A stretch of DNA of 64,000 bases, taken from Acorus gramineus (taxonomy: Eukaryota > Streptophyta > Magnoliopsida > Acorales > Acoraceae). Shown piece after piece: positions 2,413 to 60,829 of the stretch (position 1 is the stretch's first letter; the number at the start of each line of letters is the position of its first letter). The notes below the pieces were generated by a model. The model had not been told where the DNA came from and searched no databases. It saw only the letters and a list, made by a program, of their open reading frames with translations. Location: positions 3,597,324-3,661,323 of the forward strand of contig JAUJYN010000015.1 in the NCBI GenBank assembly GCA_030737835.1, written 5' to 3'. Both the position numbers and the translations under genes were made by a program.

Positions 2413-4589
2413 ATGACGTCTGCTCGTGAAGATTTGATTGATCATCCTACACCGTTAAATGCTTTGAAATTTTATGACAAGATATGGAATATTAAGGTCC
2501 GAGTTATAAGATGAGGATCTATAGAAACGTACAACAACCAAAAAGGGTATGGGAAGATATGGAAAGTGATAGTAATAGATGATGAGGTTAGTAATGTGTA
2601 ATGTGTAGATGGTTTTATGTTTTCATTACAATTTCATTTTTAAAAGTTTTATAAACTAACATCTACAGGGGATTAGAATGCAAGCAATAATGTTCAAAGA
2701 GGCGATCTCAAAATTCAATGCATTGCTGTTAAAAGATAAGACATACCAAATTTCTAACGGAATGGTCAAACCAGTTCACCCAGATTATGCCTATGTTCAC
2801 AAAATGGAGCTATCACTGACAATTCAGACACACATTGTGGAATCAGAAAGCGATTTGATTTTTTAAGAATCGATATATGATTTCACACCACTGAAGAACA
2901 TTATTCAAAGTCGAAAAGTGGACGATCAATTTGGTATGTATACTAAAACTTAAAAAATACAACAAATAGTTTATTTAATATTAAAACATGAAGACTATTA
3001 ATAATTGCTATGTATTTCATGCAGACACTATAGCTCTTGTGTTAAATGTGAGGACTACATATAGAATGGGGAAAGATAAGCAACATCCACCATCAAGAGT
3101 TCGAGAAATTATCATTAAAGATATAGAGTACAATCATATGAAACTTCATCTTATTATCATGTAATGTATACAACAAGTGAATAATGTTTTTTTTCATTGG
3201 TCCAATAGATCAGAATCAATTAAACTCTGATTGTGGAGTGACCTTGTCACGCCCCAGGGCGACCGTCCCCGAGACGTGTCAATAATATATATAATATCAG
3301 CAGTCTAAACAGGAGATCAATAAATACTCTACACAACACCGAAAATGACAACACAGACCAAATTGTAGCTGACATAATATATACAAATAGCGGAAGCTAA
3401 AACAACTGAGTCTGTAATTCAAAGACATATTACAGACCCGATACATAATGAACTGTCCTGTGAGAGCCAATATATACAATGACATCCAAATATACAAACG
3501 TGTGCCCAAGCACAGATAACAGTACATACAATCAAGAAGGGATGCTGATGGCCTCTCACTCGCAGAACGTGACGCTGCTCCGCTACTGCTGATGTGCCTC
3601 GGGGAGCTCCTCCTTCAGATCCGACTCAGATATCACTGGAGAAAAATATATGCGAGGGGTGAGCCACACGCTCAGTGAATAGCACAACCCATGATCACAA
3701 TTCATATATCCACAAATAATTTATAGCCCCTAACACGGGAGCAACCACACATTCTAATGGGTCGTTTCATCGCCAACCCACCTCCCCCCCTCACCCTCAC
3801 CCTTTCCGGGGGGTGACATGGGCCTCTTGGGGCATACAAGACCGCTCTCCACCCCTGGTCCACCCGGTAGCCTCTCCCACCCTCGGGCCTCCGCCTGGTC
3901 AACTCCCGTTATCAGTACAGTCCGACGCATCGGAGGTACCTACGGACGGGAGCCCTCTGTCAGGTATAGCCAACGCCGGGGAGTACCTACATCGGATACA
4001 ACCAATAAGGAGAAGACAACCTACTCACACGGATACGATCCTCATGGATCCATCGACACCGATTGTAACGATAAAATGTCATGAATTCTCAAGAATTCCT
4101 CCAGGGCGCATAACTAAGATGCGGGGAGACATATATTATAACAACAAGGTTATAATATTCTCTAAGGCATGCTTGTAACTATATGCTCACATTTGATTTA
4201 ATTAAATTAAACTAGATGGGAACATGCATAGTCTGGGGCTTTCCAATTAAAGGACAAGGTGACTAAACATGCATAGGCCGCTATACATGATATAAGGGTG
4301 CATATCCCTAGCATACAAAGTCTAAGGTGGCATGGATATATCATAATAATCATGCATGCATAGGTTTACATTTATTACATGGTAATATACAACTATGGTG
4401 CCCCAGGGGAGGGCAATGCACGCCTACGTGCATCGAACGCCTCCCTACTGGGTTGGATTGTCCCACTCACCGAAACCCAGGTCGCTACGTGACTGTCCGT
4501 CAAGATCTGCAAGATAGGGCATTCAAAACGGTGAGTATACTACACAAATACAAATGAAATACACTAGAAATACCCAACACTCGGACAAA

Positions 4590-5290
4590 CATGCATACGG
4601 GCCCGCATGCACGCGAGCACGCGCGTACGCACGCGAGTCTGAGTGCTCCGACACCCTCCTGAACCCACGGGCAGCCATACGCACGGCCACCCGCACGCGC
4701 ACGCCCGAAGGCGCACGCACGCACGCGCCCCTGCGCCCCGGGCGCACTGCCGCGCCCCAGCCCGCGCGCCCAGACGAGCTGCCGCGCCCCTGCCCGCGCG
4801 CCCAGACACGCTGCCGCGCGCGCCCGCGCGCACCGCGCATCCAGCCCTGCGCCTACCCGCGCGTATCAGGACCCTCTCTTTAAAATGAAAAGTGGATGTT
4901 CCGGCGCGAATCTCGGCAATCACTTGTTCTGATTCTACATATTGATCATTTTGAACTAAAATCAAACTTTTTGGTGGAATATTGACATTATGTATAATAT
5001 CCCTACCCTCAACAGTTACATAGGTACTTATGGCAGAACGGGCCGATCTGGTCTATCACAATAAAGCGATAGATGGAACTGCGTCCAGCCCTGCGCAGCA
5101 CCCCGCGCGCACCCCTGCACGCACCGCGCGCACTGCGCCCCCGCGCAGCCACTCCGCGTGCACGCCCGCGCGTCTGCGCGTACACGCGCACGCCCACCTG
5201 CGCGCCCGTCTGTGCGCGCTAGCGCCTGCCTGGCGCGCAGACTCACACGCACGCGCGCGCCCGAGCCCTTCCCACCTCCTCCTCAGCCCT
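4590..5290. repeat. CpG-rich low-complexity LTR cassette, two blocks
   Basis: Blocks at 4590-4870 and 5085-5290 are made of CGCG, CGCACG and GCGCCC runs inside an otherwise AT-rich locus. The edge near 4575-4645 (CGGACAAACATGCATACGG) is shared with copies near 12490, 37790-37850 and 58765-58845, while the core differs. Long Arg/Pro/Ala-rich ORFs on both strands are compositional artefacts. Confidence 0.7.
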
Positions 5291-5894
5291 CCCTCACCCC
5301 CCTAACAACCATACTAGCATGCATAATTAAATAAATGCCCTAAACATGCATCTAACCTAGCTAGGGGAGGAGAAAAACTTACCCAAAAGGAGGAAGGCCA
5401 ATGGGAGGAACTCGGGTGCCCTTGCGCACCAAATCGCCGCCACCGAGACCACCACCACCAAGCCCACTCTCAGCCCTCAAACATGGCTGAAAACAGGGGA
5501 GAAAGGAGACCATGAGAGGAGGCCAACAAAGGGGAAAATAAAAAACAAAACCATGGGAAGGTAGATCCAAGCCTCACCTTCCATTTTCGCTTCTATGGCT
5601 TTTCTTTTCTTCCACTCCTACTAGCTCTAATGGAAGGATTAAAGAGAAGGGGAGATGGATCTTTGTGTGTTAGTGAGAGAGAGAGAGATGGGGAAGAAGA
5701 GGTGCACGCCTAAGTGGGCTCACCCACACACACACACACTTAGTCACTCACACACTCACACTTAGAGTTTTTAGTCATTTGGTGAGCTTTGACCTTGGGT
5801 CAACTCATCCACACAAACAAACAAAACCCATTGACCAAGTCAAGGGTCAAACTTGACTTGGTCAAAGTCCAAAAACTTGATTGAATATTTAAGT

Positions 5895-7423
5895 TGTTAT
5901 TAATTACCGCAAGTGCACGGATCGTTACAGAAGTATAGATCTAGCAAATACGGGTCGAACCCACAGAGAATTGTTTAAATCAGATTATTAATCAATTTAA
6001 CTAATCGAACTAGAAAGAAAGATTGATGAAGTTTTTTTTATTATTTATTATTATTATTAAAAAGAGAATATTAATATGAAAAGATAACTAGGGTTTTAGA
6101 ATCCACCATGCAATACCAATTTAGGGATTATATTCAAATATGAAACTCCACCATATAACTCAATCAATATTGACGTTAATCAAATACCAATCGGAAAATA
6201 AATATTTAAAATCATATTAATTATTTCATAAAATCAGATTTGAAATCAAAACAATCATCTCAATATTCACATATTAGGAAGAGAATAAGATATCAAATAG
6301 TTAACCAAGCATACCCTATCAAACCCTAAACAAGAGATCATTGAAGATGGTTCTACGATTAAAAATCTTGATTTATGAAAACCCAATAGAATGATCTATC
6401 TCCCTTCCCTTTATAAAATCTACCAACTCAATATTCAACATGTTAAGAAGAGCATAAAATATCATAGAACTCAATCAAAGCATATTTTATCAAATCAAAT
6501 ACAAGAGATTTTTGAAGAAGGTAATAAGAAATTCACACAAAAGGTTTCAAAAGAGAATTGAAGGAGAGATTGATAAGCAATAAAGCAAACAATATGGAGA
6601 ATTCAAATCTAAATATAAAATCCTAAACTAACATTGCATGGTTTCATCTTCAACCCTAGTTGAAGATTTAGCTACTAGAAAACATGATCAAATAAAAGAA
6701 AAGAAAAATAAAAGACATCATATTATTAAAAAATTCTTGAAAATAAAAACACAAAATTAATATTAAAATTCAGATCTAATAGAATACAAGAATCAAAATA
6801 TATGAGATGAAAAGAAAAACAAAAACAAAGTAAAACTCTTGAATTCTTCTTCTCCTATTGTTTGCTTTGTGCCTCCTCTTATAGTCTCCAGCTCTTGAAT
6901 CTCAACCATTTATTTGCAATATAATAGATGGTTAAGATTTGGTAGTTAAGATTGGCCTCAACCTTCCTCATATGAAGTTTAGATTTAATTCCCGTCCTTG
7001 ATTTTCTGCAGAATCTTCAGATGGCTTTTTGACCCGTAATAAGATGGAATTACGAAATCTTCATGAAATAGTGATTTGTAGATCTTGAAATTATCTTTCC
7101 AACGCCATATCATGCGAATAAATCAGATACTTGAGAAAAAAGTTATGATCAAAACAGTGGGACGGGATTTTGAAGAATATATTTGATTAGATTGATTTTT
7201 ATTCAATCTTAACCAAATCTTTTTCCATAAGGATCTTCTAGAAACTCTTGATTCTCCTTCACATCTTTAACTGATTTGTAGCATATCTTGTATTGATAAT
7301 CATCATTTAAGTCAATTACCTGCAATAACACATGAATTCTTAATATTAGTTATTATTATACATAAAATAAGGATATAGAAACTTAGATTAAGGGGTTTTA
7401 ATGTATAATTAATATGCTTATCA
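5895..7423. mobile_element. Candidate solo LTR or TRIM-like insert within the solo LTR
   Basis: AT-rich DNA interrupts the TTGAC-box region that is continuous in the sister LTRs (compare 13741-13815). It begins TGTTATTAATTACCGCAAG and ends ATGCTTATCA, so the ends are TG..CA. Near its start is GGGTCGAACCCACAGAGAAT, a type of sequence seen in plant LTRs. No convincing target duplication is visible (TAAGT versus GTCAA), so the borders may be off by several bases. No coding sequence is evident. Confidence 0.45.
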
Positions 7424-9219
7424 GTCAAAGTCATCTTTGACTTGGTCAAGTCTCCCTATGACTTTCCGCTTGGTCAAAACCTGGATACGATTCGGAACTG
7501 TGAAATTCTGAACGTTACCGGAATTCGATGAAATTTTCGTGAGTGGCTTGAAATGACACCAGGACACATAATGTGCAGTTAGATTTTCAATCGGAGTTCT
7601 CAAGCTCAGGATGATAGCTAAAAGTCCAAAATTTTAGCGGTTCCGATCGAAAAAGAAAAAGTTAAAAAACTGCCAGAAATGTCCCAATGGTAACCAGAAT
7701 GCTAAAAGTTACACATATATAACAGACCAGGCTGACAATGAAGGAAAAGAATTAGAGGAATTGATCGCACACAATCCTATAATAGCAATTTCAAGAGCAA
7801 AGGGTACCATGTCCGATGGTAATTCACTTTACTCTGCCTTACCCTTAACTATGCCTAATAACAGACATACCCTACTCATTAAGTTTTTAAATAAACTTAG
7901 AAGATAAAGGAATATAAGCTTCATAACGGAAGCTATACAATAAGACTTCTCAACATTTAACTGATTAAACTAATTCAGATCATAATTACATGCAAAAACA
8001 TTACATGGCATCTCAATAATAATAATAAAAAAAAAAAACTACCAAAATATTCCTTTATAAAATTGCCTCCCATTAATAAAGTATGACGAATTTAAATTTC
8101 ATTTCAGCACTCCAGGTCCATATCGAATAGGATAAAATAAAATTATATATAAATTTAGAAGACTAGAGATTTAAGTAATGTTAATTTGACATCAAATTAC
8201 TATATGAGCTTATATCACTTTCATGTATATTACTTTGATGTATATTGTTGTTTAGTGCTTCATATTTTAAACATGAGTTGATGATCGCTGTACTTGCATA
8301 TTGTTTTCATGTATATGCCAGGTATGAAATTTTGCAAATTCATTTTCAATTTACATTGTATAGAGTTTTTAATAAATTGATGGACTTAGTTTCCTTCAAC
8401 TCCATCCTACTTAGTATGTTGGGACTGTCAACCATGCATGCACAAAAACACATTCTTGTCCATTCACCCTCAAAATACATATTTGCAATCGTATATGTTG
8501 TTCCAACAGAGTTTGCTCTTTCTATTAACACATGTTTAATCAAAATTGTACTATCTCATATCAACGGTTTGATACCCGTTCATGTTATTTTTATAAATTA
8601 CTTATTATTTAGTATAACATATACAATCTTCATTCAGGTGAATTTTGTATCAACTCAGGAAAAACAACAACAATTGAAATCAACCCATCAATTCAACAAG
8701 CTAATGAGCTATGAGAACGGTATCATATGGATTTCATTAGATAGTTTTATTGGTTTTTCAAGATTTCATAAGTTATATTATGACAAGCAAATTATTAACA
8801 TCATAATAAACAATTTCATATTTATGAAGAAAAGTGGGGACCTCAAATTTTTCCTTTCTCTGACAAAGACGGTGAGAGATACCACTGTAATGACAATCGA
8901 TGAAATCATCTGTGAAGGCACATCTAACATCAAGGTGTATATGAATGTTAATACATAAACACACACATATATATAACATGCGTATAGTACAAATGAAATA
9001 ATTATTATGAAGAATTAACTTTTCAAAGTTAATTGAAATTGCAGACTACTTTCTGCTCTTTCCAAGCAAACATCATGAGCATTGAAAACAAAAAGGAACC
9101 ATATTACAATGCATGCAAGAAGTGTTATAGTAAGGTTGACATGAAAGAAGGTGCAATGGAATGCAACGCACATGTGCTTCAACTAGTTGAGAAAAAAACA
9201 CAGTACTATTAAGTCTCAA

Positions 9220-10908: not shown

Positions 10909-13900
10909 TGTCACGCCCCAGGGCGACCGTCCCCGGGACGCGGCAAGGGTATACATGATATCAACAGTCAATACAGGAGATCAATAATATACCATAAACA
11001 ACAGCAAAAAGACAACACAGACAACAAAAGGGCTGACATGATGTATACACAGAAAAGCGGAAGCTAAAAAGACTGAATCTGTAAATCAACAACACTTTAC
11101 AGACTCGATACATAATCATATGTCCTGTGAGAGCCAATATATCCACAATACATCCAAATACAATCCATACTAGGTGCCCAAGCACAGAAATATATACATA
11201 CAATCAAAAGGAAGGATGCTGATGGCCTCAAAACTCGAGGGACGTGGCGCTACTCCGCTACTGGTGTAGTCGCTCGGGAAGCTCCTCCTTCAAGTCCGCC
11301 TCGGTAATCACTGGAGAAAATAATTATGCGAGGGGTGAGCCACACGCTCAGTGAATAGCACAACCCATGCATCACAGTTTATATTAACCACATTTAATCA
11401 AGTCACTAGCCTCAAAATGGCATAAACAACACAAATCCGGGGGTTTGTTACATCGCCGAACCACCATACCCTCACCCTCACCCCTCAATAGGTGACAAAG
11501 GATGTTGGGACTTAATAGGCTGATAATCACCCTTACACAATCCAGTGGGTCGCCACATCGCCGGCCCACCATACCCTCACCCTCACCCTCACCCCTCAAT
11601 AGGTGACATAGGCTCTTGGGACTGACTAGGCTGTTGGTCACCCTTGGTCCACCGATAGTCTCTCCCCACTCCGTAGGCCGTTTGGCCACTCCCACATTCA
11701 GCACAGTCCGTCTACCAAATCAGGAGGTGCCTACTGATGGGAGCCCCTGCACGGGACGACCTTTCTAACGCTGAGGTAGTCTCTACACAGATCCAACGAA
11801 GGGAACAGAACAGCCTATCCATCGCATATGATCCACTTGGATCCGCTGACAACACATCTCTACAACTCTAATGTCTTGAATTCTTCAGAATTCCTCCAGC
11901 GCGCATAACCAAGATGCGGGGAATACATAAGATAATAATGAGGAAAAGAGACCTTGGGAGGGCAACCTGAGGTCCCGATATAGGACATCCCGCCAACCAA
12001 ACAAGGAACACGGAGTACCCTAGCCCGGGTCTCAATGTTTACCTCGCAAGGCCCCCTTATATTCCCCAAGGCATGCTAACAATATCACAAGCTTGCATTT
12101 AAGTAAATAAATCAAACTAATAGGACGCATGCATAGGTCGGGGCTTTCCTAGAATGATAACGAGGTGACAGGATGCACGGCTCTTACACATATCCTAAGG
12201 GTGCGAGTCCCTAACATACAAGTCTAGGGTGGCATGCATTCTACACACTAATCATACTTGCATGGATTACATATAACAAGTTAATATTAACTATGTGCCC
12301 CAGGGGAGGACGGTACACGCCCAAGTGCATATAACGCCTCCCAACTGGGTTGGGTTGTCCCACTCACCGGTAACCGGGTCGTCGCGCGACCGTCCGTCAG
12401 GATCTGCAAGACAGGGTAATCAACCCGGTGAGTAAAATACACAAATACTACAAAATACCCAAAAATACACAAATAAATACCCAACACTCGGGCAAACGTA
12501 CATACGGCCCGTACGCACGCTAGCCCGAGCACCCCGACACCCTCGGCAACCACCCGCACGGCCACCCGCCCCCAGCTGCACCGCCACGCCCCAGCCCGCG
12601 CACCCAGGCGCCCCGCCGAGTCCCTGCCCGCACGCCAGGACACGCCGCCGAGCTCCCCGGGTGCACCGCGCGCTCACTGCGCCCCAGCGCAGCAGCCCGC
12701 GCGCACATCGCACGCCCCGCGCTGGCCCGCGCGCACACCGCACGCCCCGCGCGCCCAGCGCCTCGCCCTGCGCGCACCCCGCGCGCACCTCCGCTGCCCT
12801 CGCCTCGCTGTGCGCGCACCCCGCGCGCACCACCGGCTCGCCCAGCACTCCACCGACTCGCCGCGCGCGCACAGCGCGCCTGCGCCTCTACGCAGCGCTC
12901 CGCGCGCACGCCCCCGCACGGCGCCCTGCACGCATCGCCCCATCGCCCACGACCAGCGCCCAGCACACCCGCGCCCAGGCCCAGCATGCGCGCCCAGCAC
13001 ACGCGCCCAGCACGCCCTCCAGCTCCACCCGAGCGCATGCCCGCGCGCACGCGCGCGCGCGCCCAGCCTGCTGCGCTGCTTGCTGCCTGTGCTGCTGCCT
13101 GTGCTGCCTGCTGCCCGAGACCACCAGCCACCCTGCCCGAGACAGTCAACCCCCTGCCCGAGCCACCCTACCTCCTCTATCCGGCCACCAACGGCCTCCA
13201 ACAGCCACCAATCACCCCCCACAGCCACCAACACCCAAACCCACCCTCCTAACAAGCATCTAAGCAAGAAAAGGAAGGAAAGAGAGCTTACCCAAAGGAA
13301 GGAGAGGAAAGGAAGGGAACCGGAAGCTCCTCTTGCACCAAAATGCCTTCCCAAAGATCTCCACCACCAAGACCTCTTCCCACCTCCGAAAGGGCTCAAA
13401 TCTGAGGAGAAGAGAGGGCGGGAGAGAGGGCAAGACATGCCGGAATTCGAATCTGAAAACATCGGGGTGTAGATCGGGACCGGATCTATCCTTTCTATGT
13501 TTTGAGTTTTAAGTTCTAAGCCCTCTAGGTGGCTCAAAACTTAGAAAAGAGAGAGAGGGGGAGAGAGAAATTCCAAGGAAGGAGAAGATGAATAGTGGGA
13601 GATATTTTAGCTTCTCACATTAAATAAGTCAAACCTCACTTGAATTAGGGCTAATCAAGATTAATTAGGCTTAAGGAATAGATTAGGTGAGTTAAGTGGG
13701 CTTTGACTTGGGTCAACCCAACCACACAAAAAAACAAAAAGGGTTGACCAAGTCATGGGCCCACTTTGACCGAGTCAACTTTCCCAATGACTTCTCGCTC
13801 GGTCAAAACCCGGATACGCCCCGGAACTGCGAAATTTTGGAAACGTTACCGGAATTCGACGAAATTTTTGTGAGTGGCTTAAAATGGCACCAGGACACAT

Positions 13901-14057: not shown

Positions 14058-17000
14058 ATCTACATCGAGATAACTGTCCAACGATGTCTTTAAACATCGA
14101 TACGAGACCGGACCCAACAGACGAACAACGAATGGGTCGCGAGGCGACGTGTCTTCACCTCATCCTCACTCTCACTCCCGAAGGGAGACTCTTGGGACTT
14201 TTTGGAAGAGTCTTAGACTGCTTTACACCCTTGGTCCACCGGTAGCCCTTTCCCCCGCGTAGCCTCTACCTGATATACTCCCACGATCAGTACGCTTCCG
14301 AACGCATCGGTGGTACCTACAGATGGGAGCCCTCTGTCAGGACAGCTTTTCCAACGCTGGGGAGTTCCTACATCGGATCCAACGAAGGGGAGAACGATTC
14401 CACACTCGCAATATCATTCGTTAAACCTCTCCCGGGTAGCCTCTACCTGGTACACTCCCACGATCAGTACGCTCTTGAACGCATCGGTGGTACCTACGGA
14501 TGGGAGCCCTCTGTCAGGACAGCTACAACCCAGCCCTCTTCAACACGGACGACATTAGGAGTAAACATTCCATGTTCGCAAAGCGAACCCAATGGAAAAA
14601 CAACTACTCTCGATAATCACTTATCGAGATATCGAATACTACTGTACTCCCACACCGTTGCGTTGCTCGGACACAGGGGGGTGTCACGCCCCAACTACCG
14701 GCTTAACAATCCGATAAGATAATGAATTCTCCTGAATTCCAAACGAATGCATCGCTCGGATGCACGGGGCGATTACATCGCTAGCGCTCTAACTAATAAG
14801 GTACAACCCGACAGCGGGTCATACCCACGCCTATTCCAGATAGGCCTATCAGTTTTTTTAACATGCGCATATAATATGTCCAGGGGAATTTTTATATCTA
14901 GCTATGTGCATGAACCATATGCACAATCATCTAATAATTATAGGGACACTCCCTAACATGGATTTACATCATAATAAATCATACAACATGCATACATGGT
15001 CATTAATCACATAAGCACACAAGACCTAACTTAAACATGCGTTGGATATCACAAACTTAAAAGAAAGGGTCAAGCGCGATCTCGCGCACTAACAGGTGCA
15101 TGCCAATATTCCAAACGAACCTGAGTCGAGTAGGAAATCGCATCTACTTACTCAGTTCGTTCAGAGGGAGAGGGCGAGAGAGATCATCATCTCATGAAGC
15201 TGGTCATAGCTTTGCCCCATTAGCATGGGCGCAACAACCACACCACGCCCTCGAGTCTTATCGCAAGGGAATATTAGGCCAGTGCCCGTTATTAATTCAG
15301 ACTTAATCATGTTCGATATTCCAATTAATATGGTGGGAGTAGTATTAAAATACTACCTAAAGCATGTCATATTCTACACATCCATACACATTACCAAAAA
15401 TACATGCCCATACTAGAGGGGCGCATGCAACACAATCATTCATACATAGATACAATACATGTATATAAGCCTAGCATGCAAGATATCTACATATTATAGC
15501 TTAAGCATGGCCATACTACTTATCTACACAAGTAGTATAGCTAAATTGCCCCATCGATGCGTGACGCGCGACTACGCGCGTCCAGCGCATCCCAAAGGGG
15601 GGGGGGGGAGGATTGGATTGAACCACTCACCGATACCCGGATCGCGGCGCGTCTGGTCTACGAGATCTGCAAAACACAACCAATGATCCATAATTAAATT
15701 ATGGAACCTCCTATCACACATATAAGCTTACTTCATGAAGACCCTAACCCCTGATACTTCCATATTATCACCCAAGACACATGCAACCAACTCCTTGACA
15801 CTCAACCAAGCAAAAATGCTAACCTGCTGCAACCAGCCCTACTAATTGGTCTTCACAGCACCCAATACACTTCCAAAAATTATGAAATAAATCATGCACA
15901 TTATATGATATGCTGGGATCATAATCCATGAAGACATTAGAACTTAATTTTGCCTCTACAAGCCCGAAACATTTCATTTCCCGAAGCAGGTCAATTCCTA
16001 CGCGAATCTGGACAGGTCATGTAAAACTGGTTCTAACTTACACCACAGTTATCATAATGACCCCAAATTTCATATATAACATCTAGACACATAGCTGATC
16101 AAATCATAAGAAGACATAATCCTAAAAATATGCCTCTAAATACTAGATTAACTGAGATCTTTAAAAGACAGTGAGCTGCCTTACCAAAACAGGGGGAGGG
16201 AAATGGGGAGATGCGGGGTTATCGACACACCCACGACCACCTCAACCACCACCACCACTACCACCATCTCTTCAGCCTCTCCACCAGCCCTTCTTGGCAG
16301 AAAAACAGGGGTGCAAGGGCATGAGAAGGGGATTGAGAGAAGAGAAACAACAACAACAACACATGCTCACCTTTTCTCACCCTTTCTCACTCTTTCTTGT
16401 GCTTCTTCTTCATCCTTTCCTCCATTAACAGCACACACAAAACCAAAAAAATAAAGAGGGAGAGGGAGACGAGAGTGAGAGGGAGTGAGAGGTTTCCACA
16501 CACAAAGGGGGCCTTAAATGGAAATAAAGTGAGTTGGTGGGGGGAACAAGACCAAATCGTCCCTGACCAGAAATTCTGGACGGGCTTCACTAGAACAGCC
16601 ATAACTTCCACGATATAGCTCCGAATTGCACAATTCAAGATCCTTTGGAAAGCCAAGAAGATTATCTACAACTTTTATGTTTATGCCAAGATCAAATAAT
16701 CCCTCCAGCTATTCCGAAATGAGAGCTAAACATTGAACAGGGCTGCTGCCAGAATTTTTCATCCCCGGGGTATACTTGGAAAAATACCCATAACTTTTAC
16801 TACATGAATCCAGTTGATCTAATTCCACTTTTGTACGAAAGCTAACTCAAAACTGAGCATCTCATGATAAAATCATATTTAAATCTCTTCATCTTGAATT
16901 TTAACAAAATTAAATCCAAATACCAAATCAGAAATACATAACTTCTAGGAGAAAAATTATGTAGCCAAATTTTCAATCAGAGCGCTCCAACTCCTGCAGG

Positions 17001-18865: not shown

Positions 18866-19708
18866 TGTGGGGGGTGAAATTAGGCCTTCACCCTCCTGGG
18901 CTGGATCATCTCCAATCCGGGCTTTTGTTGTAGATCCGAGATGATGTTGATGACGAATCTCCTTCACGATATCCAGTAGTAGAGCTTCAGCGCCAGTCGC
19001 CGTCCTCCTTCTTCATTCTTCGGATACCTGAAACTCACACCAGTGTGGTGCCGGATAAGTCAGTCGTCTTCCTCCGGAAGAAGAACTTAGAATTCATGAG
19101 GACTGATAAGGGAGAGAAAGTATTCGCCTACCATGAGAGGGAGATGAAGTCCCTCTTTTATACCAAACAGGGGCGTGCCGAGTTTGGCCTTGCGGAGTGA
19201 CTATATCAGGATATGGAATCTCCACGCGGCCTCTGGATCTGTGGACATGTGTCGCCTAGGGATCATCACCTTATAACTGTTTTTCTGACATCCTATCCTT
19301 TTCCAGTATCAGGGAATATTTCCCTTGTTAGCCGTTACTACGCAAGGTCGGGCATATGGCCGACCTGCATTTCAATTCGGGTATTGAATCCCAGATGGTC
19401 TGTCCTTTAAGTCGGGCATTTCTCAGTGTCTGTTCTTAACTGTTCAAACTTTAGTCAACCATTTTTCGGTGCATGTCTGACTTGACCTGGTCGGGCATAG
19501 CCTCATGTTTGACTTGGCCTGGTCAGGCATAATCGTTTGCCCGATCTGACGGAAAAAGTGGGCCTGATGAGGCCGAGGGAGGATTTTGGCCCATGGGCTT
19601 TATTACCCCGAATCCCTCTTTTATCATCATAGGCTAATCCTCATTTAATTCCTATACTTATACAACCTTATCCCTTATTCGGCCTTTTGATGAATTTGGT
19701 CTCCTACA
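18866..19708 (-). repeat. 3' LTR of the Tat-like element
   Basis: It starts TGTGGGGGGTGAAATTAGG and ends GGTCTCCTACA on the plus strand. It pairs with 42091-42913. In the first ~146 aligned bases I count about 14 substitutions, nearly all C/T or G/A transitions, as expected of methylated transposon DNA. Confidence 0.85.
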
Positions 19709-33876: not shown

Positions 33877-33881
33877 AAAGT

Positions 33882-36624: not shown

Positions 36625-36625
36625 A

Positions 36626-39600: not shown

Positions 39601-40387
39601 TAGTTATCTCGATGTAGATGATCCGGTAGTGTTGTGTAGACCAGTAATTACGGGTCTCTTCGACCAACGGTATGGTCTCTCCCCAAAAGTCCCAAGAGTC
39701 TCCCTCCGAGAGTGAGGGTGAGGGTGAGGGTGAGGTTGGTGATCCAGTAGAGTTGTGTAGACCAGTAATTCCGCGTCTCTTCGACCAACGGTACGGTCTC
39801 TCCCCAAAAGTCCCAAGAGTCTTCCTCCGGGAGTGAGGGTGAGGGTGAGGTTGGTCGCACCGCCGCGTGATCCTGTTATCCATGGGTTTCCACCCATATT
39901 TTCCTTGAAAGGAAATTGTTTATGTATTGAACTGTTGTATGGTGATTGGTTTTCAGCCACTCACTGAGCTTGTAGCTCACCCCTCGCATACTGTTTCTTT
40001 TCAGGGGCAGTGTTGGGCGTGGAGCTGGAGCTTTCCTGTGGCATGGTCTTATGGGCGTGGAGCGTTCTTCCGGTGGGTGACGAGTGCGAGGCTGTCAGCA
40101 GTCCTAGAGTCATTTTATGTTTTGTAAATCGTGCATGTGGCACATGTTGTATTTTATTTGGTCTAGACTTGGCTCTCACAGGACAGTGATTGTGTATTCG
40201 AGTCTGTAATAATATTTTTGGTTTATAGACATTGTTTATATATTATGCTTCCGCTTTTCAGTCAGTTATCATTATCCTTGCTTTGCCACCTTGTGTGTTG
40301 TTGTTGGAGTCTTTGTTGACCTCAGGTATTGATAGCTGATATTTCATTATTGCCACGTCTCGGGAACGGCCGCCCTGGGGCGTGACA
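36626..40387 (+). repeat. Right LTR of the Tekay/Del-like element
   Basis: 3.76 kb, TGTTATGCC to GCGTGACA. It has the left-end type of 27241, a CpG-rich cassette at 37515-37830, a GAATTC pair near 38840-38856, a (GGGTGA)n tract at 39712-39736, and a duplicated block of about 120 bp (39620-39855) that is single in the left LTR. Confidence 0.85.
37515..37830. repeat. CpG-rich low-complexity LTR cassette
   Basis: GCGCGCGGC and GTGCGCGC runs, with the same right edge (GGTGTCGGGGCACTC) as the cassette at 58515-58840. The core sequence differs. Confidence 0.7.
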
Positions 40388-42090: not shown

Positions 42091-42913
42091 TGTTGGGGGT
42101 GAAATCAGGCCTTCACCCTCTTGGGCCGGGTCATCTCTAATCCGGGCCTTTTGTTGTGGATCCAAGATGATGTTGATGGCGAATCTCCTTCACGACGTCC
42201 AGTAGCAGAGCTTCAGTGCTAGTCGCCGTCCTCCTTCGTTCTTCGGATACCTGAAACTCACACTAGTGTGGTGCTGGCTAACGCCCCTCCGACGCTCAAG
42301 TCAGTCATCTTCCTCGGACAGAAGAAGAAGAAGAAATTAGAATTCTTGAGGACTAATAAGTGAGAGAAAGTATTCGCATACCATGAGAGGGAGATGAAGT
42401 CACTCTTTTATACCAAACAGGGGCGTGCTGAGTTTGGCCTTGCGGAGTGACCATATCAGGATATGAAATCTCCACGCGGCCTCTGGGTCTGTGGACATGT
42501 GTCGCCTAGGGATCATCACCTTATACCTGTTTTTCTGACACCCTATCCTTTTCCAGTATCAGGGAATATTCCCCTTTTAATTCGGGTATTGAATCCCAGA
42601 TGGTCTGTCCTTTAAGTCGGGCATTTCTCAGTGTCTGTTCTTAGCTGGTCAAACTTTAGTCAACCATTTTTTGGTGCATGTCCGACTTGACCTGGTTGGG
42701 CATAGCCTCACGTCCGACTTGGCCTGGTCGGGTATAATCATTTGCCCGATCTGACGGAGAAAGTGGGCCTAATGAGGCCGAGGGGGGATTTTGGCCCATG
42801 GGCTTTATTATCTCGAATCCCTCTTTTATCATCATGAACTAATCCTCATTTAATTCCTATACTTATACAATCTCATCCCCTATTCGACCTTTTGATGAAT
42901 TTAGTCTCCTACA
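42091..42913 (-). repeat. 5' LTR of the Tat-like element
   Basis: TG..CA ends, partner of 18866-19708. It contains GTCGGGCAT and GACTTGGCCTGGTCGGG direct repeats (42610-42735) also found in the partner and in the antisense 3' region (25240-25345). Confidence 0.85.
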
Positions 42914-46356: not shown

Positions 46357-48350
46357 TTAGCCACGCTCTCTCTTGCAGTTCCCAGGCAACAAAAATCTGT
46401 ACTTCTCAGCATTTTCAAGGAGATATGAAGGCAGGTGTACTGCCGAGAATGACCGTGGAATTGGCCCCAGCTTACCAATTATATCCTTAAATGTGTACTC
46501 CTCTGGAAGCATATCAAAAAGGTCCGCCCCTCGACAAATCACTCTCTGAACTCTGTCAGCATTCAAATAATGAGAGAATCTCACGCGATCAGTGTGGCTA
46601 TAGGCCTTCATTTTGAATATGAACTCGCTTATGTGGCGGAAGCAGAAACTGCAATGCCAACCCGCATCGGCAAGGATGTCATCAGTCTGTCTATAGTGGG
46701 CGTATCGAGTCCTTCCCATCTGGTACCGGTGCACCGAAGCCCGCCAGCTCTTGTTATCCAGCAAAAACTCAAACGAATAGAGGTAATTCCGAAGGCGTAG
46801 GTGAAGAATCGGTGGGATGTCATCACACCACCTCAAGAGGTTGATTGTGTGTCCGCTTGGAATCTCATCAACATCCGACATTATCAATAGATCATCGTCG
46901 GTGATGCCGGCAATTCTCAAGAGCTGATCAAGAGCCACGCGTTGGTAGGCCTCCTCAATGAAAGGGTTCTCACCCTTCTTGAATCTCCCCCCAACGACTC
47001 CATATGTCAGCCTCGGCTCAATAAACTTGAATTGGCTTCTGTTTTTCGCAAAATAGAGTGGCTTTGTGCGGCCTGTGAAGGTCGAATTGGACTCCAAGAG
47101 GACGAATTGAGTTATATATGGCTGGAGCTCGTGCCAGCGGATGGTGAGGATGTCCAATTCATTGCTGAATAGGACGGCATCAAAAACCCGCCTTGGCGTG
47201 TCCCGGATTTTCCACCCATGGAGTTTGCATTGGTTTTCCATCGAAATGTTCTCATGGTAGTAGTGGGGAATGTTGTGGAAGGGCTTTGGCGGAGACTCCC
47301 ATATCGGGCGAAGAAAGTACGTAATCTTCTGGCCATGCAAATACATCCCAAAAATGAAGGTTGGGACCACCACGAATAGGAGAATGAACATCTTCAAGTC
47401 CAATCCTCGGAGGGCACATCGAAGTCTTGACACTCGTGTTGCCTGCTGAAAGGTATGGAGTGGAAATATTGAATCCATCAATTAGGTCCAATATGAAATT
47501 TGCTAGGCATGGAGGATTCATAAACAAATGTACGTGGATAAGAAAATGAAGTGATGTTTCTCAATCATGAATTCAGTTCAAAGGAAAGCAAAATCATTTT
47601 GTTGATCAAATTACCATGATTTCCAATCTAATAGAAATTATGAAGTGTTTTATATGCATTGACTAGGATGTTATATCAAATAGATCAAGAAGCATTTCTT
47701 TTTTCTATACCTTTAGTAGACTTAAAACAGGTACTATAAAATCGAGTAATTCTACCCAAAAAATTATTTTTGACATATGAGGCATTTCTTTTTCTGTGTT
47801 TTTCATGTAAAGCAAAAAAAAAAAAAAAAAAAATTGGTGGACTGAATCCATGCAAATCAAAAAAGTATTTTTTTCTTCTTCTTTTGAAGGCCTTTAACCA
47901 TTTAAGAACCATTAACTGAACTGACCAAACAAATTGGAACAAGAAAACAAAACCCTATAACTTTCATTTCAGATATGAATCAATACATTCATAACTCAGA
48001 TCCCTGACTAACAATTTCAAAATCAAAACTCACAAACAGAATTTGAAGCAAAATTTCATCACCCAAAGCTCCCAAAAAGGGGATTTTTTTAAAAAAAAAA
48101 ATCTCAAAATGAGAAATTTTTTCCCGAGATTGAACAAGCAAAACAACAAACACTAAAATGGGTTGGCCCGAAAAATGAAAAATAAAACAAAAGATTGAAC
48201 CCTAAAACACTAGATCACAGAACAAAAACAGATCTACAAAAAAATTAAAAAAAAACACACAAATAAATTTTAAAATACCTGACCACATACGTCGTCGCAG
48301 ATGTCATCGGTCTTCTTCGAATTGTAATACCCTCCTGCTTCAGGCATCAT
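46357..48350 (-). CDS. Glycosyltransferase family 17 protein (beta-1,4-mannosyl-glycoprotein N-acetylglucosaminyltransferase-like), two exons
   Basis: GT17 enzymes resemble animal MGAT3, which adds bisecting GlcNAc to N-glycans in the Golgi. The acceptor of plant members is not established. Exon 1 (48279-48350) reads [20 protein letters not shown], then VCGQ, followed by a GT donor. Exon 2 starts at 47445 after a CTTTCAG acceptor and runs to the stop at 46357. The product is about 386 residues, the usual plant length. A type II membrane anchor lies at about 43-60 ([18 protein letters not shown]). The catalytic region includes [29 protein letters not shown] (about 141-149), [26 protein letters not shown] and the DXD motif in [20 protein letters not shown] (D215, D217). 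Near the end are [13 protein letters not shown] and [20 protein letters not shown]. An in-frame ATG in the intron (47481) is not the start, because exon 1 supplies the conserved N-terminus. The acceptor is CAGCAG, so products with one or two Gln are possible. It looks intact and is the only clearly live gene in the window. Confidence 0.93.
47446..48278 (-). other. Intron of the GT17 gene
   Basis: 833 bp with GT donor and AG acceptor on the minus strand. AT-rich, with a poly-A run near 47815-47835 and another near 48250. No inserted element recognised. Confidence 0.85.
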
Positions 48351-52625: not shown

Positions 52626-52635
52626 TTTTTTATTT

Positions 52636-54000
52636 GGGAAAATTAATTAGAGGTCCTCACTGCCACCTCCCAATTATTTTTAGGTCCCTTGAATTTTTTT
52701 ACTTTTTTCTAGGTCTCCAACTCTCAAACTCATTATTTTTAGGTCCAATTTAACACTTTCCGTCAGACCCTTTTCTTTGACTTCCAAAAATTCCCTTTCA
52801 ACAAATACATTTACCCGAACAATCCAAATCTCACCTTCTTCTTCCCCAAGTCATCTCTTCTATTCACCTTTTCTCCATTTTTCCCACCAAATCACAGAGA
52901 GAACGAGAGAACGCAATCCAAACCCAAAATCATTTCTTTCATCATGCATATTCATCCACCCTTCGTGTTTCTTCTCTATTCAAAACCCTAACAAAGCCCA
53001 CCATTCAAAACCCTAAAAGCCTACTCCATCTGAAACCCTAAATAGGCCACCAACCTGACGCTCCCCCCTACGACGACGACGGTGGTGGCAACAACGGAGA
53101 ACCACAGACTTCAACACATAGAAATCTTCCTATTGTAAGTCATTTTAATATGTTCTTTCCAAAATCAATTCTTCAAATGAATGTCTAGTTCCAGATTTAA
53201 TGTGTGGTACTCCTTTTCATGTATGATATACTTGTGATATATTCCATGTTATAGCATCATTCTTTTTCTATGCTTGAGTGATATGTTCCACGTTGGTCTC
53301 TTGGTACATTGTTATGGATTCCGGGCACATTGTTAAGTATTTTCAGTACAATATTAGGTCATATCGGTACAGTAATAACCTATGTTTTCCTATGCTATTC
53401 CATGTATGATATATCCAAATTATTGATTCATGATTATTAATGAATACATGAATTTTATATTTACAAATTCTCATAAAAGAAACTAGTATGTGGCATACAT
53501 AAATTCATCTTTATTGAAAAACTTGGTATGTTAGTCTCTCATAAAAAGAATTAGTCGTTCGTCTTTTAGTACACTGTTATGGTATGCTTTAATGATCTTG
53601 TAATTTTTTTTCCTAAATGACTCACCTTTCCTCAGATCCTTCCTTTAAAGATTTAAAAAATTTTCCTTTCACCAAATGGGTTTTAATTCTTCACTTAGTC
53701 TGCGATATTGGTTTTTATGTATCTAATTATAATTTCTCTTAACATATGATTAATTAAATTGTTATTCCATTTTCCCTTGTTAGGAATGATAGATGCACAT
53801 TTGGAGTATTAATGAATGTCTAGGAGCATATTAGATGTTATTATGAAATCTAGTTATGAAAATGCATTACTTATTGTTATTTGTTATTGTTATTTTTATT
53901 TGTGTACACTGTTATTTTTTGTGTGTGTACATGTTTGTTAGCTTCCTTTTTTTTTCTTTTTGCACATTTTTATAGGATTTTTCTCAAAAATTTATCCCAA
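52636..54000 (+). repeat. Left terminal inverted repeat of the Mutator-like element
   Basis: Matches 61058-62455 in reverse complement over nearly its whole length, down to CACATTWTWTAGGAT and CAAAAATTTATCC near 53965-54000. The outer 500 bp resemble a promoter and leader (CTCAAAACCCTAA-type and CACCATTCAAAACCCTA motifs, CT-rich tracts). Confidence 0.85.
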
Positions 54001-55372: not shown

Positions 55373-55453
55373 ATGGACAAGACGTGTTTTGAATGGATCT
55401 ATTATACAAATAACTTGAATGGACATGAAGTTATGTTTTGAATGGACAGAAAA

Positions 55454-56930
55454 TGTGACACCTAGCCCAAGAGTCCAAGAGGCCCATGGATTGGGTGATG
55501 GTGAGGGTGTTTCGTCCCACATCGCCTAATGGGAGGAGATAGTCTGTGCTTATGGGTGAGCACAGCTCTTACACACCAAGACGCTTTTTAAACCCGTGAG
55601 CCCATTTAGGGGCAAAGCGGACAATTTCTTTCTGTGTAAACCTGGGGCATTACAATTGGTATCAGACCCTGTCCATTATGCGATGGTGGGTGTGGTGGCC
55701 CCACACGAGGACGTGTGGCCTATTAGGGGGGTGATTGTGACGCCTGGCCCAAGCCCAAGAGTCCAAGAGGCCCATGGATTGGGTGATGGTGAGGGTGTTT
55801 AGTCCCACATTGCCTAATGGGAGGAGATAGTCTATGCTTATATGTGAGCATAGCTCTTACACACCAAGACGTGTTTTAAACCCATGAGCCCATTTATGGG
55901 CAAAACGGATAATTTCTTGCTGTGTAAGCCTAGGGCGTTACAATTTTTGAGTGATTTAGTCGCTTGGGGCTTGACACACCTGTTTAAGGGGAACGGTTCT
56001 TCCGATTGAGAACCCTACTCGGTCATACCATTTAAACTGCATGATTTCTATAACGTGGGCCAAGGATTGGGCCACGTGATTGCATTAAAATAATTTTATG
56101 TTCATGATCATGATTTTAAATTGATTTATTAAAGGAAATTCTTGTTTTTTACATAACTTTATTTATATATATATAACTGTCATATGAGATAATATATCTG
56201 TGAGTCTATTCACTGAGTTAATTGCTCACCCTATTCCAAATGGCTGGTTGTTTCATAACCAGGTAGTTCATCTTCTGAGGATCAAGACAAATCTTGAACT
56301 TTTTATACACTTCAGGGATCTCGAGGTAGCAGTGTTGGAGAATAAATAACAGTCGTAGCCGACTATTTGGTTTTATTTTAGTTAGATGGCTCCCACAAGG
56401 GTGGTTTAGTATGTTTTTTAATTCTATTATTTTGTTTCCGTCAAACTCTGATATTTTGTAAGACCATTAGTGGTTTGGAACCTTTGAATGTTGTTTTTAT
56501 GTTTTATCATTTTCAGTTATATTATATTAGAATGTTTTTTTTTTTTAAAGCAAATTTTGGTTTTGTGTTTTGTATAGGTGTGGTAGCGTCCTGTTTACCG
56601 TCCGATTAGCGGCTAGGTAAATGTGGGGCGTTATAGCTGATATCAGAACCTGTCCATTACGCGATGGTGGGTGTGGGTGGCCCCACACGAGGACGTGTGG
56701 CCTATTAGGGGGGGGGGGGTGATTGTGATGCCTGGCCCAAGCCTAAAAGTCCAAGAGGCCCATGGATTAGGTGATGGTGAGGGTGTTTAGTCCCACATCG
56801 CCTAATGGGAGGAGATAGTCTGTGCTTATATGTGAGCACAGCTCTTACACACCAAGATGCGTTTTAAACCTGTGAGCCCATTTAGGGGCAAAACGGATAA
56901 TTTCTTGTTGTGTAAGCCTGGGGAGTTACA
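55454..56930 (+). mobile_element. TRIM (miniature LTR retrotransposon) complex with three LTRs, TSD GAAAA
   Basis: Three copies of a ~205-bp LTR occur: 55454-55654, 55736-55942 and 56724-56930, with TG..CA ends (the third starts TGTGATGCC). Between the first two lies a complete 81-bp internal part with a priming site TGGTATCAGA (55657) and a purine run before the next LTR. A second internal part (about 56640-56723) precedes the third LTR. Between the second LTR and that internal part is about 695 bp of foreign LTR-like DNA (55943-56638) ending GTGGGGCGTTATA. The outer flanks are GAAAA at 55449-55453 and 56931-56935, so the complex sits as one insertion. It codes for nothing. Confidence 0.85.
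55943..56638 (+). repeat. Foreign LTR-like segment inside the TRIM complex
   Basis: Not TRIM sequence. The end GGTAAATGTGGGGCGTTATA and the GGCTCCCACAAGGG motif resemble right halves of other Ty3/gypsy LTRs (compare the block at 25379-27240). No second copy in the window. Confidence 0.5.
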
Positions 56931-56984: not shown

Positions 56985-57245
56985 TTGACCAATTGATGTT
57001 ATGAATATAAGTTATGTTATGAATGATGGTTGTGTTTTGAATGATATAACTTATGTAATAATTGTTGTGTTATGAATGAAATGGTATTATGAATGATAAA
57101 TCTGCTATGAATGACAATTGTGTTATGAATTGTGTAGTTGTACATGTTATGAATGAAGTTGTATTATGAATGATAGTCGTGCTATGAATGACAATTGTGC
57201 TATGAATGGTAAGTTGTGTAATGAATGATAGTCGTGTTAGTCCAT
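56985..57245 (+). repeat. TATGAATGA-rich imperfect tandem region
   Basis: The motif (T/C)TATGAATGA recurs about a dozen times at 10-30-bp spacing, with GTTATGAATG variants. Similar TTTTGAATGGAC copies begin already at 55365-55450, across the TRIM insertion. Confidence 0.75.
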
Positions 57246-57605: not shown

Positions 57606-60600
57606 TGTTGTGCCTGTGTCATTTGGAGCGCTCTGTTTGAAAATTTGGGGTACATAATTTTTTTTCCTAGAAGTTATGTATTTTTCGATTTGGTATTTGG
57701 ATTTGATTTTGTTAAAATCCAAGATGAAGAGGTTTAAATATGAGTTTACTATGAGATGTCCAGTTTTGAGTTATCTTTCGTACAGAAGTGGAATTAGATC
57801 AACTGGATTCTTGTAGTGAAAGTTATGGGTATTTTTTCAAGTATACCCCGGGGATGGAAATTCTGGCAGCAGCCCTGTTCCATGTTTAGCTCTAATTTCG
57901 GATTAGCTAGAGGGATTATATGATCTTGGCATAAACATGAAAGTTGTAGATAATCTTCTTAGTTTTCCATCGGCCTTGGAATTGAGCAATTCGGAGCTGT
58001 ATCGGGAAGTTATGGCTGTTTCAGTGAAGCTTGCGCAGAATTTCTAGTCGAGGGGCGACTTAGTAATTCCCCCTTACGATATTTTTGATAAATATCTCCT
58101 CCCTCTCTCTTCCCCTCTCACCCCCACGTCGACTGCATTTCTGGTCTCTCCTTCTCTTTTCCTTTGCCCCCCCAAGTGTTTGATGAAATGTCTCAAAGAG
58201 AAGGAGGAGGTGGTGGAGGAAGTGGTGGTAGATCTTGTGTTCATGTGTGTTGTTTGTTTGTTCCCCTCTCTCAAGCTCCCTTTCCATGATATCCCCCCCC
58301 CCTGTTTTGCTGCCATGGGAGGGCTGAGGAGGCCGAGGTGGTGGTGGTGGCGGTTGAGGTGGTCGCGGGTGCGTCGAGGGGCCCCGAACCTCCCCCTCTT
58401 GTTCCCCCTCCAAGGTGAGCTCCTCCCCTTCTTTTCTTGCTTTTCTTGGCTTAAGGGGTTGGTTGAGAGGTCATGCATGCTAGGTAGAGGTGTTAGGGTG
58501 TGTGTGAGGGGTTGGGAAGGGTTAAAATGGGGTTAGGGCAAAGTGGGCGCGCCTTGGGGGTTGTCTGCGCGCGGGCGCGCGCGCACGCGCGCGCAGGCGG
58601 GCGCTGGCGGGCGCGCAAGCGCGCGCGGGCACGTGCGCGCGGGGGCGCGCTGGGCTGGCGCGTGGCAGTGCGCCGATGGTGCTAGGGTGCGGCGTGCGTG
58701 CGCATTCATGGGTGCGCATGCGGGGGGCCATGCGTGTGGCTGCCCAAGTGTTCGGGTAGGTGTCGGGGCACTCGGACTCGCGTGCGTACGTGCGTGCTCG
58801 CATGCGTGCGAGCCCGTATGCATGCTTGTCCGAGTATTGGGTATTTCTAATGTTTTCTATGTATAAATTGGATTGTTTCTCACCAGTTGGATGCCCCTAC
58901 CTTGCAGATTTCGTCGGATGGGATGCGCGAGGTCCCGGGTCATAAGGTGGGTGGTTTGATTCGAATCCCCCCCCTCTCTAGGGATGCGCTCGACCTGCGT
59001 AGACGCGCGTCGCGCATCGATGGGGTCCCCTAGCTATTATATGTAGAAGCTATGCATGCACCCTTATATGATCAATATGATGCTATGCATGCCACCCTAG
59101 ACTTGTATGCTAGGGATATGCACCCATACATCATGTATGGAGGCCTGTACATGCCTGGACACCATGTCCTGTACTTAAGAGCCTTGATCTATGCAAGCAT
59201 GATTAGTATGTAGTATGCATGCCACCCTAGACCTTCTATGTTAGGGACTTGCACCCTTAGGATATGTGTAAGAGCCATGCATCCTGACACCATGTTTCAT
59301 GCTAGGAAAGCCTCGACCTATGCATGTGTCCTATTAGTTTAATTTATTTAAATCAAATGCGAGTTATTGATAATTAGCATGCTTAGTGAATATTATAACC
59401 TTGAGGTTATAATATAGGCTTCCCCGCATCTTAGTTATGCGCCCTGGAGGAATTCTGAAGAATTCATGACATTAGTAGAGTCTCCTTCTCTGGATTAAGG
59501 GGCCTTGCGAAGTCAGCGTTGAGACCCGGGCTAGGGTACTCCGTGTTCCTTGTTTGATTGTCGGGATATCTTATATCGGGACCTCATGGTGCCCTCCCAA
59601 GGTTTCTTTTTCCAGTTAAGGAATACCGCGGATCCAATTGGATCGTATCCGTGTGGGTAGGCTGTTCCTCTTCCCTTCGTTGGATCCGTGTAGGGACTCC
59701 TCAGTGTTAGACAGGCCGTCCTGACAGAGGGCTCCCATCAGTAGGCACCTCCTGATTTGGTTTCGGACTGTGCTGAATGTGGGAGTAGACCAGGCGAGCT
59801 ACGGTGTGGAGGAGAGGCTATCAGTGGACCAAGGGTGATTAACAGCCTAGTCAGTCCCAAAAGACCATGTTACCCTGTGAGGGTGAGGGTGAGGGTGTGG
59901 TGGGTCGGCGATGTAGCGACCCATTGGATTGTGTAGTTGCTGCCACTTAGAGGCTATGACTACTTTGAGGTTAATATGAGTGTGTTGGTTGTTGTTATGC
60001 ATGTGAGTGATGTCTCGATGAGCGAGTATCGAGAGTGGTTGTTCGAGTTGAGGAGATCGGGTTGTAGATACTACCCGGGAGTGGATTAATGAATGTGGTC
60101 GCGAGCGTGGAATCGTTCTCCCCTTCGTTGGATCCGATGTAGGAACTCCCCGGCGTTGGCTATACCTGTCAGAGGACTAGGCGGAGGCCACGAGGGTGGG
60201 AGAGGCTACCGGTGGACCAGGGGTGTAGAGCAGTCTAAGTCTCTCCCAAAGTCCCAAGATGTCTCCTTTCGGGAGTGAGGGTGGGGGTGAGGTTGGTCGC
60301 GCCGCCGCGTGACCCAGTGATCATTGGGTTTCTACCCATGTTTTTCCTTGAAGAAGGGAATTGATTATGTTTTGAACTGTAGAATGGTGATTGGTTTCCA
60401 GCCACTCACTGAGCTTGTAGCTCACCCCTCGCATACTGTTTCTTTTCAGGGGCAGTGTTGGGCGTGGAGCTGGAGCTTCCTGTGGCGTGGTCTTATGGGT
60501 GTGGAGCGTTCTTCCGGCGGATGGCGAGTGCGAGGATGTCAGCATTCCTAGAGTCTTTTATGCTTTGTAAATCGTGCATGTGGCACAGGTTGTATTTTCT

Positions 60601-60829
60601 TTGGTCTAGACTTGGCTTCCACAGGACATTGATTGTGTATTCAGGTCTGTAATAATGTTTTTGATTTACAGACATTGTTATATATTATGCTTCCGCTTTT
60701 TCAGTCAGTTATCATTATCTTGCTTTGCCACCTTGTGTATTGTTGTTGGTGTCCTTATTGACCTCAGGTATTGATAGCTGATATTATACTTTATTATTGT
60801 CACGTCTCGGGGACGCCTGGGGCGTGACC
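57606..60829 (+). mobile_element. Solo LTR of the giant LTR family, TSD CTTGT
   Basis: It starts TGTTGTGCCTGTGTCATTTGG and ends GGGGCGTGACC, flanked by CTTGT at 57601-57605 and 60830-60834. Its length is 3224 bp. The left end is of the 30045 type, the middle is a CpG-rich cassette (58515-58840), the next block (about 59480-59640) is of the type in 11930-12060 and 20860-20980, and the right end is of the 33876/40387 type. A GAATTC pair lies at about 59450-59466 and (GGGTGA)n at 59876-59900. No coding domain is present. Fossil. Confidence 0.92.
58515..58840. repeat. CpG-rich low-complexity LTR cassette
   Basis: GCGCGCGGGC and GGGCGCGC runs. The right edge (GGTAGGTGTCGGGGCACTC, CGTATGCATGCTTGTCCGA) is shared with 37765-37855. 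Confidence 0.7.

Follow-up and report, generated by a model that had tools for sequence, protein, structure and literature searches.

We analysed a 64-kb stretch of Acorus gramineus DNA (contig JAUJYN010000015.1 of assembly GCA_030737835.1, positions 3,597,324 to 3,661,323; hereafter the window), which holds eight copies of one family of long terminal repeats (LTRs), 2.8-4.5 kb in length. The copies were found by self-comparison of the window and their ends were inspected. All eight copies or parts listed in a preliminary description of this DNA proved real, although two of its positions, 10143 and 10909, are the right ends of two nested solo LTRs, L3 being split by L4. Taken together, the evidence makes it probable that these LTRs exchange blocks within one Del/Tekay-like family, that their cassette is intron-like, that most mosaics arose by template switching before insertion and that L1 and L2 were joined later. 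The copies, with coordinates in LTR orientation, are as follows.

30045-33876, + strand: L1, 5' LTR, 3832 bp; left type B, 33876-type right end, and between them a private middle that carries a 62-bp array.
31078-31406, + strand: 62-bp tandem array of 5.3 units, found in L1 only.
36626-40387, + strand: L2, 3' LTR, 3762 bp; left type A, CpG middle, 33876-type right end.
17069-14058, - strand: L3, solo LTR, left and middle part; left type B, AT middle; target-site duplication (TSD) GGCAG with the right part.
10908-10143, - strand: L3, solo LTR, right part; 33876-type right end.
14057-10909, - strand: L4, solo LTR nested in L3, 3149 bp long; left block related to type A, CpG middle, 3245-type right end; TSD TAGAT.
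23186-19817, - strand: L5, solo LTR, 3370 bp; type as L4; TSD CAATC.
7724-3245, - strand: L6, solo LTR, 4480 bp including an insert; CpG type, 3245-type right end; flanks TGGTC/AGGTC (4/5).
~5866-7434: foreign AT-rich insert in L6, ~1.57 kb, edges approximate.
27241-30044, + strand: L7, right end truncated by L1; left type A, AT middle.
57606-60829, + strand: L8, solo LTR, 3224 bp; left type B, CpG middle, L4/L5-like third block, L1-3-like right end; TSD CTTGT.

Every copy begins with TGTTRT, and the seven that have a right end finish with GGGGCGTGACA or a one-base variant of it. The five solo LTRs (L3, L4, L5, L6 and L8) carry an exact 5-bp TSD in four cases and four matching positions of five in L6, while L1 and L2 flank a deleted element without a TSD and L7 is truncated. 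L6 is a CpG-type copy, and its AT-rich stretch is the foreign insert: L4 positions 1-294 and 280-362 match L6 positions 1-290 and 1860-1943.

The blocks of these LTRs had been described as interchangeable. Exchange was borne out, with the main pairwise matches remaining collinear. Left type B is shared by L1, L3 and L8 (87-95% identity) and left type A by L2 and L7 (83%), with L4-L6 more remote (67-73%). The AT cassette is common to L3 and L7, the CpG middle to L2, L4, L5, L6 and L8, and the middle of L1 is private. Middle GC content is 0.7-0.8 with a CpG observed/expected ratio above 1 in the five CpG copies but not in L3 or L7; the CpG-rich stretch of L1 is the 62-bp array, a cassette that the preliminary description had already recognised. 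These middle types are distinct, but the AT and CpG cassettes are not wholly unrelated, as such copies match at 66-75% just left of the cassette. The two proposed right-end types, 3245-like and 33876-like, separate cleanly: L1, L2, L3 and L8 are 91-95% alike, L4, L5 and L6 76-83%, and identity between the groups is 60-66%. All four combinations of left and middle block are present, exactly as they had been named: 27241 (L7) has A with AT, 17069 (L3) B with AT, 36626 (L2) A with CpG and 57606 (L8) B with CpG.

Two copies are mosaics in their own right. The left part of L3 (1-520) is 95.2% like L1; its AT cassette, a part in which L1 cannot be aligned, is 92.1% like L7 over 634 columns; and to the right of the core, over 915-928 columns, it is again close to L1 (95.3%) and L2 (94.9%), with 80.9% identity to L7. 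L8 changes partner within alignable sequence. Its block V is 84-86% identical to L4/L5 and 69-70% to L1-L3, while its block VI is 91-92% identical to L1-L3 and 60-61% to L4/L5; the incongruent splits of the two blocks each have an ultrafast bootstrap of 100. A walk of the 3SEQ kind detected the switch with all four parent pairs (0/20000 permutations each), placing it at about L8 position 2320 with one pair and about 2660 with the other three, and sliding windows put it at ~2400. In control walks the value was 4130/20000 with L5 as child and 20000/20000 with L1 as child, the latter uninformative because one parent matches at almost every site. Simple divergence cannot by itself account for the pattern, because neighbouring blocks of the same copy pairs differ abruptly (L1/L2, L3/L7), four combinations occur and L8 switches partner. 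On these comparisons we take block exchange among the LTR copies within the window as established, in agreement with the preliminary description, which had preferred it to simple divergence.

The place of exchange can be narrowed further. The right halves of L1, L2 and L3 are ~95% alike, but the middle of L1 is unrelated to those of L2 and L3, which share only a ~350-column stretch of 66% identity plus the core. Ungapped identities were taken from an anchor at GTGAGTGG, over 36 nt on its left side and 24 nt on its right. L1 and L2 are 28% identical on the left and 96% on the right, L1 and L3 28% and 92%, and L2 and L3 64% and 88%. Left block B has a common end point in the three copies that carry it (~520 in L1 and L3, ~463 in L8). 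As judged by these identities, the edge at GTGAGTGG is an exchange seam common to L1, L2 and L3.

Around this edge lies a conserved core. In seven of the eight copies it consists, in order, of TTGCAG, a 36-nt island (39 nt in L8), GTGAGT (GTGGGT in L8) and a stem-loop; in L1, GTGAGT is present with unrelated sequence before it. The cores lie at:

31576-31660, + strand: L1 core; GTGAGTGG and stem-loop, without TTGCAG and the 36-nt island.
37918-38046, + strand: L2 core; TTGCAG, 36 nt, GTGAGTGG, stem-loop.
15542-15672, - strand: L3 core.
28467-28590, + strand: L7 core.
58902-59034, + strand: L8 core; 39 nt, GTGGGTGG.
12290-12409, - strand: L4 core.
21214-21334, - strand: L5 core.
4392-4512, - strand: L6 core.

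GTRRGT occurs in all eight copies and TTGCAG in all seven that have the island. The pattern TTGCAG-N30-45-GTRRGT, composed after the site had been seen, occurs seven times in the window when both strands are searched, always within an LTR, in LTR sense and at homologous sites; an order-1 Markov model gave a mean of 0.375 and a maximum of 2 in 40 simulations. The longest invariant run in the seven-copy alignment, TTGCAGAT, was equalled in 5 of 20000 column shuffles. When the island is read in its three frames, stops appear in 2, 2 and 1 of the seven copies.

Upstream of the core, GGTRAG stands at the same aligned place in all seven copies tested (L2-L8), and the AT or CpG cassette sits between it and TTGCAG:

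37411-37923, + strand: CpG cassette of L2, GGTAAG to TTGCAG.
27954-28472, + strand: AT cassette of L7.
58415-58907, + strand: CpG cassette of L8, GGTGAG to TTGCAG.
15667-16184, - strand: AT cassette of L3.
12404-13291, - strand: CpG cassette of L4.
21329-22443, - strand: CpG cassette of L5.
4507-5382, - strand: CpG cassette of L6.

The AT cassettes reported earlier at 27960-28490 and 15640-16200 nearly coincide with the intron-like stretches of L7 and L3. When AT and CpG copies are paired (L2-L3, L2-L7, L3-L8 and L7-L8), the left match stops close to the GT, from 7 nt upstream to 4 nt downstream of it, in all four pairs, and resumes 6-10 nt before the 36-nt island in three. Conserved borders enclosing a divergent interior are what an unconstrained intron between conserved exons would show. 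The cassette thus resembles an intron, the island a microexon and the borders splice sites. An earlier candidate for the end of exon 1, AAG/GTGWG (L2 592, L3 700, L7 523, L6 2148), ranked first in L2, L3 and L7 but had no clear counterpart in L4, L5 and L8, and GGTRAG took its place.

If the middle is unconstrained (intron-like, CpG- or AT-rich and microsatellite-prone), it could simply turn over faster in ordinary subfamilies, with no exchange at all. The middle is indeed of low complexity with degenerate tandem units, Del LTRs are known to have plastic CpG islands on their 5' side (in the part of PMC4029996 drawn on here), and the AT/CpG differences end at the splice-like borders, as those of unconstrained introns would. 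Such divergence may contribute to the AT/CpG contrast as such. It cannot yield a 92% L7-like cassette between 95% L1-like blocks in L3, nor the four combinations, nor the switch of L8 in alignable sequence. We reject it as the whole answer and consider it very improbable.

The second element of the core is structural. Minimum-energy folds place a stem-loop just right of GTGAGT in all eight copies, with differing sequence. Over 11 of the 18 pairs proposed by RNAalifold, 90.9% of the 88 cells are paired, and 10 cells are altered on both sides in a compensatory manner; none of 500 shuffles reached either value, and slid versions of the pairing scored worse. The z-scores of the single-copy hairpins range from -0.76 to -3.28. 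A search of Rfam at the gathering threshold gave no match.

These features could be those of a gene-like LTR. Exon 1 would run to G/GTRAG, followed by the cassette as intron 1, the 36-nt microexon and a second intron opening with the hairpin. Splicing would shorten the mRNA leader, while the full LTR would reach the next copy through unspliced RNA; the edge that bears the hairpin would be a hot spot for template switching by reverse transcriptase, and promoter, exon and intron would be shuffled as modules by copy-choice. We had thought this doubtful, and raised our estimate to a tentative one, a little short of an even chance, because the upstream donor is conserved in all seven copies tested.

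Several points weigh against this reading and the broader picture. By an approximate scoring of splice sites, GGTRAG ranks first as donor in L8, third in L6, fifth in L3 and L5, seventh in L7, ninth in L2 and beyond the best nine in L4, and TTGCAG ranks first as acceptor in L3 and L7, fourth in L4, sixth in L2, ninth in L5 and beyond the best nine in L6 and L8. Both motifs look like splice sites by their sequence; L1 has neither of them, only GTRRGT, and L7 and L8 do not match at the core. The stem-loop was derived from the same sequences used to test it, and two of its five measures are not above shuffles (both-side-changed pairs, 155/500; further pair types, 489/500). Its energy is unremarkable in L2 (z -0.76) and L8 (z -0.97), the centroid fold of L8 differs from it, and its role as trigger of the template switch is one that we infer. 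The AT/CpG difference might reflect unconstrained introns and not swapping, so that the case for exchange is carried by L3, L8 and the L1/L2/L3 seam. All eight LTR copies, moreover, come from one 64-kb window.

The main alternative to the intron reading is that the core marks the U3/R boundary. The stem-loop would then open R, and intermolecular first-strand transfer would swap the whole of U3 and leave R-U5 in place. This explains the single seam common to L1, L2 and L3, and TATA-like words precede TTGCAG by ~40 nt in L8 and, judged by eye, in L2; a TATA pattern search finds nothing there in L4-L6. In crapaud, variation is limited to U3 and recombination at strand transfer has been suggested (in the section of PMC10787394 used here). 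The L2/L3 identities, 64% in the island and 88% to its right, put the transfer point at GTGAGTGG, but a boundary there leaves the retained TTGCAG and the upstream GGTRAG unexplained, and L8 also switches well within its right half. We consider a U3/R start at the core unlikely.

Further downstream, a conserved CTGTA...TTACAG stretch lies ~160 nt before the LTR right ends (for example at 33719 in L1). The acceptor-like site in this part of U5 reads TTTACAG in L1, L3, L4, L5 and L8, ATTACAG in L6 and TTTATAG in L2. It was considered as the downstream splice partner, but we do not claim it, since this part of the LTR is also similar to a plant poly(A) region.

L1 and L2 enclose the only interior of the family in the window:

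33877-36625, + strand: deleted interior of a Del/Tekay-like element, 2.75 kb; match to an integrase C-terminal SH3 domain, polypurine tract (PPT) at its end.

L1 is followed by AAAGT and then by TGGTATCAGAGC, an iMet-type primer-binding site (PBS; 33877-33893), and a purine-rich tract, the PPT, directly precedes L2 (36600-36625). Together these fix the transcribed sense. Del/Tekay chromoviruses have an iMet-type PBS by the 5' LTR, a purine tract before the 3' LTR, and an integrase with a C-terminal SH3-like domain and a chromodomain. Five interior pieces of open reading frame (ORF) were scanned, and the sole match was to the integrase C-terminal SH3 domain (PF24626, E 9.7e-12, 36054-36500); neither reverse transcriptase nor chromodomain was matched in these pieces of the deleted interior. 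All seven right ends (L1-L6 and L8) have a U5 att of type A, with GGG at -8 to -10. The family is likely, from these features, to be a Del/Tekay-like Ty3/gypsy chromovirus of plants, an assignment that is not proved because reverse transcriptase and chromodomain are without a match. In viral contigs, a search with the integrase piece gave nine pattern stretches and no confirmed relative, and the two patterns of LTR end plus PBS gave no match. A shorter LTR-end/PBS pattern found six stretches in genome contigs, in bacterial or archaeal metagenome-assembled genomes, which were taken as chance. A search for tRNA genes found none.

L1 and L2 are thus the two ends of one PBS-to-PPT unit, yet they differ in both left and middle blocks, over most of the left 1.3-1.5 kb. 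At 95.3% identity they are no closer to each other than L1 is to L3, and the outer flanks, ATACC and CTTGG, form no TSD. Since both are ends of a single unit, their difference is not attributable to template switching. With disagreeing blocks, no TSD and a distance equal to that between L1 and L3, the unit is best read as two separate insertions joined by DNA recombination after insertion. Complex elements that are joined, lack a TSD and have outer LTRs that do not match are described in the part of PMC1950507 available to us; they resemble the L1-L2 unit, and differ in being complexes and not solo LTRs built of blocks. Directly beside the right end of L2, and in the opposite orientation, lies a Gag fragment of another retrotransposon (PF03732, 40388-41963, - strand), and nearby positions 42091-42913 match 18866-19708 at 85%.

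For most of the mosaics the following route is probable. The leader inside the LTR would have an exon-intron form, its cassette an intron free to diverge or be replaced. Two RNAs of the family would be co-packaged, so that most mosaics arise before insertion. In minus-strand synthesis the right half would be copied from one RNA before the stable hairpin is met; around GTGAGTGG there is a patch that matches even distant family members, and there reverse transcriptase could continue leftwards on the second RNA, swapping promoter, exon and cassette together. This route fits L1, L2 and L3, as an inferred history of their seam. Comparable events are discussed in the excerpts cited: the authors of the ONSEN study invoke recombination between co-packaged RNAs for recombinant LTRs (PMC5668417), strand transfer is named for crapaud as a step at which U3 might be replaced (PMC10787394), and block exchange is discussed for HERVH LTR7, with template switching as the traditional model (PMC8912925).

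A rival history places the origin of the mosaics in LTRs that were already integrated, through gene conversion or unequal recombination of their DNA. Post-insertion recombination is needed for L1 and L2, whose unit ends differ in left and middle blocks without a TSD, a pattern like that in the cited part of PMC1950507, and gene conversion has been predicted in 25% of LTR pairs (according to the portion of PMC7251063 consulted). Gene conversion can also yield mosaics that leave TSDs undisturbed, a further point against our preferred history. The exact TSDs in four solo copies speak against reciprocal exchange, and those around L3 and L8 in particular argue against reciprocal post-insertion exchange and not against gene conversion. 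Gene conversion, however, requires homologous flanks on both sides, and the left and middle blocks are largely unalignable between types. We regard a post-insertion origin of the mosaics in general as quite unlikely, and continue to favour template switching before insertion.

Modular recombinant LTRs are a known kind, here in a large and clear form. According to the sections of PMC4029996 used here, Del LTRs are the largest and most variable among plant elements, and Del/Tekay chromoviruses share with this family very long LTRs of variable length, a plastic CpG-rich 5' half, a U5 att of type A, an iMet-type PBS, a PPT and an SH3-type integrase end. Those same sections describe lineage-specific CpG patterns and eudicot Del copies without a CpG island, and they report no block exchange, splice-like borders or hairpin. 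HERVH LTR7 has LTR blocks with conflicting block trees, read as subfamily recombination; it is a human endogenous retrovirus, and its blocks are given no exon-intron form in the cited part of PMC8912925. ONSEN members have recombinant LTRs in extrachromosomal DNA, an experimental precedent for template switching, but as far as the cited part of PMC5668417 goes the copies are so similar that many reads are indistinguishable, whereas here the cassettes are largely non-alignable and the seams coincide. In crapaud of Podospora (PMC10787394) and Tnt1 of Solanaceae, with its U3 modules (PMC1838419), variation is likewise concentrated in U3 and the right part conserved, on the portions of both papers drawn on, and 7 of 150 full crapaud copies have disparate 5' and 3' ends, as do L1 and L2. 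Hosts and elements differ from ours, which has intron-like AT/CpG cassettes of ~0.5-1.1 kb and the L8 switch in the right half. What is new here is the splice-like cassette borders and the hairpin core, neither of which the preliminary description had noted; in open-access literature searched for introns or splice sites within LTRs and screened by title-level entries we found no description of such borders, of a hairpin core or of introns in plant LTRs.

If the variable middles of Del LTRs are introns that lie between conserved leader exons and are swapped as modules, a single testable cause would underlie their variation in length, their CpG plasticity and their changes of promoter. Insertion dating from LTR-LTR divergence would also fail for joined copies such as L1 and L2.

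A few minor features complete the window. L3 (10674-10904) and L2 (39619-39850) contain tandem duplications, 115-121 bp in size, in which G-rich runs resemble GGGTGAGGGTGAGG, and strict G-quadruplex patterns occur on the LTR + strand in L4, L5, L6 and L8 and on the opposite strand in L3 and L7. The sole host-gene match among the ORFs scanned is a GT17 glycosyltransferase (46357-47481, - strand; PF04724, E 8.6e-187). The L8 region is flanked by inverted copies of another repeat (52636-53997 and 61074-62455, 85% identical). Three copies of a ~217-bp direct repeat (55438-56930, 84-93%) are followed by an 18-bp tandem array (56997-57239).

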